Shown: positions 46,607 to 51,648 of the stretch, piece after piece | How positions within the stretch are numbered: the stretch's first letter is position 1 | Layout: the number at the start of each line of letters is the position of its first letter | Source: Kyrpidia spormannii | GTDB taxonomy: Bacteria > Bacillota > Bacilli > Kyrpidiales > Kyrpidiaceae | Direction of reading: 5' to 3' | Length of the DNA stretch: 64,000 nt | Assembly (NCBI RefSeq): GCF_002804065.1 | Contig: NZ_CP024955.1 | Location: forward strand, 1,364,001-1,428,000 | The notes under the pieces: model-generated | Told to the model about the DNA's origin: nothing | Database searches by the model: none | Seen by the model: only the letters and a program-made list of their open reading frames with translations | Program-made: the position numbers and the translations under genes

Positions 46607-47827
46607 TTGACCAAGGGCGACATCATCGTCAGTCTGGACGTTGGGACATCCAAGATCCGGATCATCATCGGAGAAGTAACAGGCAGCAACTTGAACGTGA
46701 TCGGCGTCGGGACGGCACCGGGTGACGGGATCCGCCAGGGAGCCATTGTCGATATCGACAAAACGGTCCAGGCGATTCGAGAAGCGGTGGAACATGCTGA
46801 ACGGATGGTCGGCGTGCATATCCAGTCGGCCTACGTCGGGGTATCCGGCAGCCACATCGCCTTGCAATCCAGCCATGGAGTGGTGGCGGTCTCGTCACCG
46901 GACCGCGAGATCACCGAAGATGACGTCGATCGCGTTCTTCAGGCCGCCCGGGTCATGGCCCTGCCTCCCGAACGGGAGATCGTGGATGTCGTTCCAAAGG
47001 AATATATCGTCGACGGGTTGGAAGGGATCACCGACCCCCGTGGTATGATCGGAGTCCGGCTGGAGGTGGACGCCCATATCATTACGGGATCCCGGACGGT
47101 TATTCACAATTTGGTGCGATGTGTGGAGCGCGCCGAGATGGAGATTGCGGGTCTTGTCCTCCTCCCTTTGGCAGCCGGGTCCGTCGCCCTCTCCCCGGAT
47201 GAAAAGAAGCTCGGCGTCGTGCTGGTCGATCTGGGTGCCGGGGCCACGACCATCTCGGTGTTCGAGCGGGGTGCCCTCGCCGGGGTCAGTGTGCTTCCGG
47301 TCGGCGGAGACTACGTGACGAACGATATTGCCATCGGTCTGCGGACGCAAACGGACGTGGCCGAGAAGATTAAATCCAAACACGGCTGGGCGATGGTGGC
47401 TTTGGCACCCGGGGACGAGCGGTTTAAAGTCCCAAGGATTGGCAACCAGGATGAAAAAGATGTGTCGGCGCAGGAGTTGGCGACGATCATCGAACCGCGG
47501 CTGCAGGAGATGTTCTTCCTCGTTCGCCGAGAGATTGAGCGTATGGGGGTGGCGGGGGAGATTCCCGGAGGCTATGTCCTCTACGGCGGCGTGTCCGCCA
47601 CCCGCGGGATCGACAAGCTGGCCGAACATGAGTTGGCCGCTCCGGTGCGGGTCGCTGTGCCCGAGTTTTTGGGTGTGCGGGATACTTCGTTTGTCAATGG
47701 GGTGGGCATTATCCGATATGTGGCCAACCATAGCTACCGCCGGGCTGTGGATCACCAGCCCGCTCGCAAAGGGGCGTCCCCCGGATTGATTCGACGAATA
47801 AAGAGTTGGTTTGCCGATTTTATGTGA
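46607..47827 (+). CDS. ftsA: Cell division protein FtsA
   Basis: This actin-like ATPase tethers FtsZ to the membrane. 406 residues: [21 protein letters not shown] (phosphate 1), SHA/1C domain with [31 protein letters not shown] (phosphate 2), [18 protein letters not shown] (adenosine motif), and a C-terminal amphipathic helix [17 protein letters not shown] 46607 lies seven bases after GGGGGTG and gives the normal N-terminus; an upstream ATG frame from 46487 runs through a terminator and promoter. Confidence 0.95.
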
Positions 47828-47843
47828 GCGGAGGGACACGGTG

Positions 47844-48917
47844 ATGCTCGAGTTCGAATTCGACACGGAGCACCTCGCACAGATCAAGGTGATCGGCGTG
47901 GGAGGAGGAGGCTGTAACGCGGTCAACCGGATGATTGAGTCCGGGATCAAAGGCGTGGAATTCATTGCGGTGAACACCGATGCCCAGGCTCTGCAGTTGT
48001 CCAAGGCCGAAAACCGTCTGCAGATCGGGGAGAAACTCACCCGGGGCCTTGGGGCCGGGGCGAATCCGGAGATTGGGAAGAAGGCTGCCGATGAGAGCCG
48101 GGAGCAGATCATGAACGCCCTGCGGGGAGCGGATATGGTATTCGTAACCGCCGGGATGGGGGGCGGTACGGGCACCGGAGCGGCGCCGGTGATCGCCGAG
48201 ATCGCCAAAGAACTCGGGTCCCTGACGGTGGGCGTGGTGACTAAGCCTTTCAGTTTTGAAGGGCGGCGTCGGATGAACCAAGCAGAACAGGGAATCCAGC
48301 ATTTGAAAGAAAAGGTGGATACACTGATCGTCATCCCCAACGATCGGTTGTTGGAGATCGTCGATCGCAATACGCCCATGCTCGAGGCGTTCCGGGAAGC
48401 GGACAATGTGCTGCGCCAAGGCGTGTCGGGGATCTCCGATCTGATCGCCGTCCCCGGATTGATCAACGTGGATTTCGCGGATGTGAAGACCATCATGACC
48501 GAGCGGGGTTCGGCCCTGATGGGCATCGGAGTGTCAAGTGGGGAAAACCGAGCCGCGGAGGCGGCCAAAAAAGCGATCTGCAGCCCACTATTGGAAACCT
48601 CCATCGACGGGGCTCGGGGAGTGCTCATGCATATTGCTGGCGGCAACAATCTCAGCCTGTTCGAAGTGAACGAAGCCGCAGATATCGTTTCCTCTGCGGC
48701 CGACCCCGAAGTGAACATGATTTTTGGTGCGGTGATCAACCAGGATTTGAAGGACGAGATCGTCGTGACGGTGATTGCCACCGGTTTTGAACACAAAGCC
48801 CAGCAAACAGCAAAGCCCGTCAACAAAGTGGAGATCCGACCTTTTCAGAATGTCCAGGCGCCGTCTCAATCGGAAGACTACCATATCCCCGCCTTTCTTC
48901 GACATCGGCGAGGATAA
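47844..48917 (+). CDS. ftsZ: Cell division protein FtsZ
   Basis: FtsZ is a tubulin-like GTPase forming the Z-ring. 357 residues: [16 protein letters not shown], tubulin signature [11 protein letters not shown] (106-116), synergy loop [11 protein letters not shown], and the C-terminal peptide [13 protein letters not shown] that binds FtsA, SepF and other partners. The linker before the tail is short. ATG 47844 follows GGAGGG by eight bases. A strong terminator follows. Confidence 0.98.
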
Positions 48918-48977
48918 GTGGTTAAAGCCAAAGAGCTGGGGCGCCCCGGTATCGGGCGATAAAACCCAGACAGCGCA

Positions 48978-49007
48978 AGCCTTCGGAGGGACCGAGGGCT
49001 TTTTTTA
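48978..49007 (+). terminator. Intrinsic terminator of ftsZ
   Basis: AGCCTTCGG (48978-48986) pairs with CCGAGGGCT (48992-49000), loop AGGGA, followed by a T7-8 tract. Confidence 0.9.
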
Positions 49008-49011
49008 TGCC

Positions 49012-49055
49012 TTCGTCAAGGTATGACAAAGTTTGTCATAGACATGTACTATACT
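49012..49055 (+). promoter_or_regulatory. spoIIG promoter region with palindrome and Spo0A-like box
   Basis: TTCGTCAA (49012-49019) matches the Spo0A box in reverse at seven of eight positions. Next is a perfect 8-1-8 palindrome ATGACAAAGTTTGTCAT (49023-49039), whose first arm can act as a -35 (ATGACA). TATACT (49050-49055) is the -10, 21 bases away. The B. subtilis spoIIG promoter also has an over-long -35/-10 spacing and is activated by Spo0A bound near the -35. Confidence 0.6.
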
Positions 49056-49094
49056 GATTTGTACGGTGCCCCGTGTGGGAAGAAGGTGGAACCG

Positions 49095-50045
49095 GTGCCG
49101 GTGATGTACGGGGACTTGGTGGCGGCGGTGAACGCGGGGATGGACGCCTTGGCCCTATGGGGGACAGCTTGGATCCTTCGCATTCCCCCCCGGCCCCTGC
49201 GGGTTCTCGCAGCCGCTTGTTTTGGGGCGGGTTATGCCATGGCGGAACTGTTTCTGCCTGCTCTGGGCGGGTGGTGGGCGCGCATTGTCGTTTCCGCGGC
49301 GATGGTTCGCTTGGCCCTGCCCCTGCGGGGCATAGGCTATTGGATTCAAGCTATTGCTTTCTTTTATCTGGCGAATTTTGTATTCGCCGGCGCGATGATC
49401 GCCTTGCAATGGGGCGTCGGCGGTACCGCCGGGATCGGCGCGGGTCTTGTGGTCATGAGTGGAACCCCCGCCTGGCTGTGGCGATGGAGAACCGGGGTCT
49501 TAGCCCTAGGCATCCCCTTCGGCCTGTTGCTGTTGGCGGGGTTGTACCGGGTCAAGCGGCGCAATGAGCAACTGGTGGATTATACGGCTCGCATGAAGGT
49601 CGTCACCCCCCTGGGCAGCCGGGAGGTGCCGGTCCTGCTCGACTCCGGTAATCAATTGCGGGAGCCTCTCAGCGGCTGGCCGGTGATCGTCGCAGAAGCT
49701 GAAGGCCTGCGGGGCATTCTCCCGTCCTCCTTGTTCGAGTGGCTTCGCAATGCCCGGGGGCCGGGCAGGGATCCACCGATTGCACCGACCGCGGATCTAG
49801 GCGAGGAATGGTCGTCCCGACTTCGGGTGGTCGCCTGGCGTGGCGTTCACGGCCGCGGCGGGTTACTGCCAGCCTTTCGACCGGACGGCGTTCAAATCCG
49901 GCAGGGATCCCGGGTCTGGACGGTCGGCCAGGTTTATGTGGCGATCCAGGCGGAGCCCGTAGATCGGCGCCGGCGATACGCAGCCATTGTACCCACATCA
50001 GTGCTCGATTCGGCGGGGATCATCGCCGGGTGGGCCGGTCAGTGA
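49095..50045 (+). CDS. spoIIGA: Sigma-E processing protease SpoIIGA
   Basis: A membrane aspartic protease activates pro-sigma-E in the mother cell. 316 residues: an N-terminal half with about five membrane helices and a C-terminal pepsin-like domain with the catalytic Asp in [11 protein letters not shown]. Counting from GTG 49095 (after AAGGTGG) the Asp is residue 183, the same number as in B. subtilis, which supports this start over ATG 49023 (inside the promoter). It lies 13 bases before sigE, its substrate. Confidence 0.92.
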
Positions 50046-50862: not shown

Positions 50863-51648
50863 ATGAAACGCAATAAGGTGGAAATTTGCGGAGTGAATAC
50901 CTCGCAGTTGCCCGTGCTGACCAACGCCGAGATGCGGAAGCTGTTTGCCGAACTTCAGGCTGGAGATCTTTCGGCTCGGGAGCGTCTCATCCACGGAAAC
51001 CTGCGCCTGGTGCTCTCCGTGATCCAGCGTTTCAACAACCGGGGGGAGAACGTGGACGACCTGTTTCAGGTCGGGTGCATCGGATTGATGAAAGCCATTG
51101 ATAACTTTGATCTCGGTCAGAATGTGAAATTCTCGACCTACGCCGTACCGATGATCATTGGGGAGATTCGGCGGTATCTGCGGGACAACAATCCGATTCG
51201 GGTCAGTCGATCGTTGCGGGACATCGCCTACAAAGCTCTACAGGTTCGGGATCAGTTAACAAACGAACGGCTGCGGGAACCGACGATCACTGAGATCTCC
51301 GAGCAGCTCAACCTGCCCAAAGAGGACGTGGTTTTTGCCCTGGACGCCATCCAAGATCCCGTTTCCCTGTTCGAGCCGATCTATCACGACGGGGGCGACC
51401 CGATCTATGTCATGGATCAGATCCGGGATGACCGCAATCAAGACGTACTCTGGGTCGAAGAGATCGCCCTTCGGGAAGCGATGAACAAACTGGGCCAGCG
51501 AGAACAAAAGATTTTGGCGATGCGATTTTTTGAAGGCAAGACCCAGATGGAGGTGGCTGAGGAGATCGGCATCTCCCAGGCCCAAGTCTCCCGTCTCGAA
51601 AAGTCGGCCATTCAGCATATGCAAAAGTTCATTAAAATCCAGGGCTGA
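50863..51648 (+). CDS. sigG: Late forespore sigma factor SigG
   Basis: A 261-residue sigma factor. The N-terminus KRNKVEICGVNTSQLPVLTN is the sigma-G hallmark bound by SpoIIAB and Gin. Region 2 (GNLRLVLSVIQRFNNRGENVDDLFQVGCIGLMKAIDNFD), region 3 (REPTITEISEQLNL) and region 4 (QMEVAEEIGISQAQVSRLEKSAIQHM) are complete. ATG 50863 after GGGAGGG. Its own forespore-type promoter lies in the gap behind sigE; a terminator follows. Confidence 0.97.
   Translation: MKRNKVEICGVNTSQLPVLTNAEMRKLFAELQAGDLSARERLIHGNLRLVLSVIQRFNNRGENVDDLFQVGCIGLMKAIDNFDLGQNVKFSTYAVPMIIGEIRRYLRDNNPIRVSRSLRDIAYKALQVRDQLTNERLREPTITEISEQLNLPKEDVVFALDAIQDPVSLFEPIYHDGGDPIYVMDQIRDDRNQDVLWVEEIALREAMNKLGQREQKILAMRFFEGKTQMEVAEEIGISQAQVSRLEKSAIQHMQKFIKIQG

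Follow-up and report, generated by a model that had tools for sequence, protein, structure and literature searches.

A perfect palindrome at the over-spaced spoIIG promoter of Kyrpidia spormannii, probably a by-product of adjacent Spo0A-like boxes

The spoIIG promoter and the Kyrpidia locus

In Bacillus subtilis, the spoIIG promoter is a sigma-A promoter that is activated by Spo0A~P through weak 0A boxes. Its -35 and -10 elements are 22 bp apart, and a further 0A site is located upstream. According to the model for this promoter, Spo0A~P stabilises the sigma-A polymerase on an over-spaced promoter. PMC3485338 gives the Spo0A core as TGTCGAA, with G2, C4 and G5 as the contacted bases; these correspond to C6, G4 and C3 when the box is read as TTCGACA. 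PMC12090719 cites, for Spo0A~P at spoIIG, an effect that is purely kinetic and comes after the closed complex. Among the literature matches listed, no paper was found on Spo0A sites in Kyrpidia or on a palindrome at spoIIG.

The genome of K. spormannii examined here consists of 3,352,175 bases in one contig, and positions refer to the window, i.e., the whole stretch of 64,000 nucleotides that was analysed. The genome has one match to Spo0A_C, which corresponds to a full-length Spo0A (TIGR02875, 390.5 bits). About 115 residues of its DNA-binding domain align without gaps to PDB 1lq1 and 1fc3, with which it shares the stretch NTT-SRVERAIRHAIEVAW except at one residue. We infer that the Kyrpidia protein should read the same boxes. 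The features of the locus are the following:

48977..49006, + strand: intrinsic terminator after ftsZ (stem-loop 48977-49001 plus a T run); the promoter follows directly
49012..49018, + strand: 0A box 1, TTCGTCA, 6/6 specified positions of TTCGNCA
49022..49028, + strand: 0A box 2, TATGACA, 4/6 to TTCGNCA; overlaps ATGACA
49022..49040, no strand: perfect 19-bp palindrome, composed of box 2, box 3 and the intervening bases
49023-49028, + strand: -35-like hexamer ATGACA, 21 bp before TATACT; overlapped by box 2
49032..49038, + strand: 0A-like box 3, TTTGTCA, 5/6 to TTCGNCA; in the promoter spacer
49050..49055, + strand: -10 hexamer TATACT, exact in 104/109 accepted upstream regions
49095..50045, + strand: spoIIGA, likely GTG start at 49095; match to TIGR02854
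50059..50787, + strand: sigE, second gene of the operon; SigE model above its cut-off

The palindrome sits between the ftsZ terminator and spoIIGA, and the block that contains it (49010-49056, CCTTCGTCAAGGTATGACAAAGTTTGTCATAGACATGTACTATACTG) lies directly upstream of spoIIGA-sigE, in agreement with the original prediction that this is a spoIIG promoter. The match of spoIIGA to TIGR02854 has an E value of 4.5e-43 and 147.7 bits, below the curated cut-off of 209.55. The next frame after sigE (50863-51648) looks like sigG by its place and sequence. Transcription would start near 49062. The palindrome also contains an ATG (49023), which is only a mechanical start of the spoIIGA frame. A simple scan also proposed ATGACA and TACTAT, separated by 18 bp, as the promoter; this pair was discarded because the conserved hexamer is TATACT, which lies three bases further on. 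Elsewhere in the window, an open frame of 643 aa (46895-48826, - strand) runs antisense to ftsA-ftsZ and probably arises from the high G+C content of the coding sequence.

The symmetry was originally described as a perfect palindrome of 17 bp. This 17-mer is present (ATGACAAAGTTTGTCAT, 49023-49039), inside a perfect palindrome of 19 bp, TATGACAAA-G-TTTGTCATA, that is one base longer on each side and has a 9-1-9 structure. The distance of 11 bases given for the 17-mer is true of TTGTCA (49033-49038), whereas the 17-mer itself ends 10 bases (49040-49049) before TATACT and the 19-bp palindrome ends 9 bp before it. As predicted, the left arm supplies a -35-like hexamer at a spacing of 21 bp, and a Spo0A-like box is found just upstream, i.e., TTCGTCAA at 49012-49019, which fits a Spo0A box and matches TTCGNCA at every specified position. 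This box and the two arms of the palindrome are best read as one row of three direct-repeat boxes in a 10-bp register, and not as an inverted repeat.

Layout of spoIIG promoters across the class

Upstream regions of spoIIGA were collected from class genomes (46 regions; 48 matches in 47 genomes, from which a weak short match in G007 and a second one in G054 were dropped) and from 80 named GTDB loci (80 of 526 confirmed), none of which is titled B. subtilis. Removal of 6 duplicates from these 126 left 120 distinct regions. The promoter block was located by a weight matrix that was seeded with five promoters and iterated, and acceptance required a score > 3 and a -10 score no lower than 5.5; 109 pass and 11 fail (L020_G014, L032_G052, L130, L137, L114, L045_G045, L043_G013, L040_G027, L042_G059, L018_G044 and L024_G026). 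Upstream of spoIIGA in L020, L032, L114, L130 and L137, three of them titled Aneurinibacillus, the usual block is absent and a TTGTCTNNATTTTTCATACGATTTA-like stretch is shared instead; these five upstream regions perhaps represent a different promoter arrangement.

With the -10 picked as the best match within 16-25 bp, a procedure that favours finding one and that assigned 16 bp to two of the 109, the GACA of box 2 was located 21 bp (72) or 22 bp (35) before the -10 hexamer in 107 of the 120 distinct regions; over-spacing of 21-22 bp is thus the rule for the spoIIG promoter. Since this is the class-wide layout, the contrast with B. subtilis is weakened. In the -35 register, 89 of the 109 accepted promoters have at least 5 of the 6 TTGACA bases. 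At a spacing of 16-18 bp the match reaches 5 in just 2/109, and 98/109 have no hexamer with more than three TTGACA matches at that spacing.

The boxes show a similar regularity. When TTCGNCA was scanned over 83 distinct blocks from outside the genus, the top three of 70 registers were 49022, 49012 and 49032 (z 4.2, 2.8 and 2.5), exactly 10 bp apart and on one strand, and the same three peaks were obtained with the 35 accepted non-genus rows (of 43) of the class-genome set. In the opposite orientation, two registers stand out, both with z 2.9: 48991, an upstream site, and 49024, where the invariant ACA bases are also those of box 2.

The Kyrpidia locus therefore resembles other Bacilli (106 accepted non-genus regions) in its 10-bp-phased boxes and in the 21-22 bp to TATACT, and resembles B. 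subtilis in its operon, its over-spaced -35 and -10 elements, and its 0A boxes, which lie over the -35 and upstream of it. It differs from B. subtilis in that it is without a clear further upstream 0A site and adds the 0A-like third box and the palindrome. The best match upstream at the Kyrpidia locus, within 48980-48997, reaches 3/6 to TGNCGAA and 4/6 to TTCGNCA, and this region is occupied by the ftsZ terminator. An upstream reverse match of at least 5 is present in 31 of 86 distinct blocks, so that the site is not found throughout the class. Compensation for a lost upstream site by stronger downstream boxes was also considered; the sum of box 1 and box 3 is 6.90 with the site (31 blocks) versus 6.44 without it (54), which leaves compensation unsupported class-wide.

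The spoIIE promoter of Kyrpidia is also over-spaced, with TTGACA and TATAAT 22 bp apart and TGTCGAA boxes upstream; unlike at spoIIG, the main boxes are further upstream and in the other orientation, and there is no palindrome at the -35. The regions upstream of spoIIE in three congeners (L149, L150 and L151) have TTGACA and TATAAT separated by 22 bp and a perfect TGTCGAA box upstream. The over-spaced layout is thus common to two sporulation promoters of the genus.

Conservation, symmetry and the third box

The palindrome is perfect in the three members of the genus (G000, G001 and G002), and the 19-mer occurs at one place in each. Between G000 and the divergent congener G002, the block 49010-49056 is identical at 47/47 positions; outside it, the intergenic flanks agree at 71/127, the ftsZ DNA at 83% and the spoIIGA DNA at 68%. 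Selection thus holds the whole promoter, palindrome included, within the genus; the genus block has no internal variation, and for this reason selection on the boxes and selection on symmetry are inseparable in these data. In the sister genus (G003), the block agrees at 42/47 positions, the differences being at three arm positions and at 49010-49011, and the palindrome is not perfect. Alignment of spoIIGA upstream regions, which had been proposed as a check, therefore shows conservation within the genus that does not extend to the sister genus. In the spoIIGA of G001 (L002), a TGA lies three codons ahead of the normal stop and the protein ends slightly early, which is probably trivial.

Regarding the symmetry, the window contains six perfect 8-1-8 palindromes, as compared with a mean of 1.6 and a maximum of 3 in 30 dinucleotide shuffles, and a palindrome with 8-bp arms and a spacer of 0-4 appeared in 24 of 5000 shuffles of the local 111 bp (48990-49100). 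In view of these values, symmetry by itself says little: it is mildly unusual locally and alone is no evidence of function. Conservation is the better evidence. Outside the genus, at most 7 of the 9 arm pairs are complementary, and none of the 106 accepted non-genus upstream regions has a perfect palindrome. Among the 85 distinct non-genus blocks, 3.53 of 9 pairs are complementary versus 3.54 (sd 0.08) in column shuffles, i.e., no arm covariation was detected, and three other centres of symmetry score above that of the palindrome. It follows that the palindrome is not a feature of the class.

What distinguishes Kyrpidia among the other Bacilli, besides the palindrome, is box 3. The summed box match of 15/18 is the highest among the 86 distinct blocks. 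The C at 49037, found in 3 of the 85 non-genus blocks where 69 have A, allows the Kyrpidia box 3 to keep both G4 and C6, a combination present in this block only (1 of 86; 0/85 outside the genus).

Readings of the locus

The probable reading, in which we have good confidence, is that this is an ordinary sigma-A-type, Spo0A~P-activated promoter of spoIIGA-sigE, in which Kyrpidia-specific bases made box 3 0A-like and incidentally completed a palindrome. The observed basis consists of the sequence, the spacing, the class-wide register of the boxes, the genus-level conservation and the intact Spo0A; binding of Spo0A, use of sigma-A, activation, and any role of box 3 at spoIIG are what we infer. 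ATGACA, at 21 bp from the -10, would be too distant to be recognised well without help. Spo0A~P would bind the direct-repeat boxes at 49012 and 49022, and possibly that at 49032, upstream of and over the -35; most likely, it would stabilise the sigma-A polymerase on the over-spaced promoter from boxes 1 and 2, which span about -50 to -34 relative to the proposed start. The palindrome would be the outcome of box 2 (TATGACA) meeting box 3 (TTTGTCA) in this genus, and its full symmetry would require the bases that are specific to the genus at 49023 and 49037. With C at the latter position, box 3 would regain the equivalent of a base pair that Spo0A contacts, and this C may thus be kept for box strength and not for symmetry; this genus-specific change might alter the Spo0A switch. 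The following points stand against this reading. Box 2 is weak here (4/6) and the same region in the opposite orientation, TGACAAA, matches at 5/6, so that symmetric binding would be compatible with the sequence; two of the three arm differences from the sister genus, at 49023 and 49030, leave the box match unchanged and yet both complete the symmetry in Kyrpidia; and box 3 lies where the polymerase should sit.

This last region is the subject of a plausible alternative, against which we lean only slightly: box 3 would not be a Spo0A site, ACTTTGNAATA would contact the polymerase (e.g., a shifted sigma region 4) or shape the spacer, boxes 1 and 2 alone would bind, and the palindrome would be a coincidence. 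It would account for non-genus blocks that never combine G4 and C6 and yet conserve T49032, T49033 and A49037 (76, 82 and 69 of 85). Nevertheless, box 3 keeps an exact 10-bp register with box 2 and gives the third-highest TTCGNCA peak, and the Kyrpidia segment is closer to a 0A box and unchanged among the three congeners. This alternative has the same core as the preferred reading and differs from it on box 3 alone.

It is unlikely, in our estimation, that Kyrpidia, without a clear upstream Spo0A site, made its spacer into a true third 0A box, such that Spo0A~P, after activating through boxes 1 and 2, would at high level occupy box 3 (or bind symmetrically to boxes 2 and 3 together) and close the promoter. 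If this were true, the result would be a pulse of spoIIG expression and not a plain switch.

Very improbable is the proposal that Kyrpidia gained the palindrome as an operator for some dimeric regulator distinct from Spo0A. This operator, perhaps a Fur-type 7-1-7 site, would overlap the -35 and the spacer and probably repress spoIIG. The perfect 9-1-9 symmetry is fixed in the three genus members despite the diverging flanks, and all three arm differences of the sister genus fall at positions where Kyrpidia is complementary; on the other hand, with an invariant genus block, conservation of symmetry is indistinguishable from conservation of the promoter. There is no second perfect copy of TGACAAANTTTGTCA in the 3.35 Mb. 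The single copy with one mismatch is inside open frames, as are most of the 14 places with two mismatches, and the two clearest intergenic ones precede glycosidase-like and GAPDH-like genes (named by eye from the sequence) with no evident link to sporulation. Allowing up to one mismatch, the 19-mer was found in 4 of the 398 class genomes, and three of these belong to this genus; in the fourth (G050), the copy has one mismatch and is far from spoIIGA. Outside the genus the arms do not pair beyond the 7/9 mentioned above. A separate dimeric operator was rejected as leading explanation on the absence of genomic recurrence and arm covariation and on this near restriction of the 19-mer to the genus. 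Thus, from the original suggestion of a lineage-specific site for a dimeric regulator, the lineage specificity stands, whereas the separate regulator gives way to direct, 10-bp-phased boxes. An RNA hairpin was set aside given that the palindrome is upstream of the proposed transcription start.

The spoIIG promoter of Kyrpidia is therefore of a known kind, in which genus-specific bases happen to give a palindrome. The survey provides a class-wide footprint of this promoter, i.e., a spacing of 21-22 bp and boxes in a 10-bp register, and the case shows that a striking palindrome can arise from adjacent direct-repeat boxes. For Kyrpidia, it singles out one base, 49037, as bearing on whether a third Spo0A box works.
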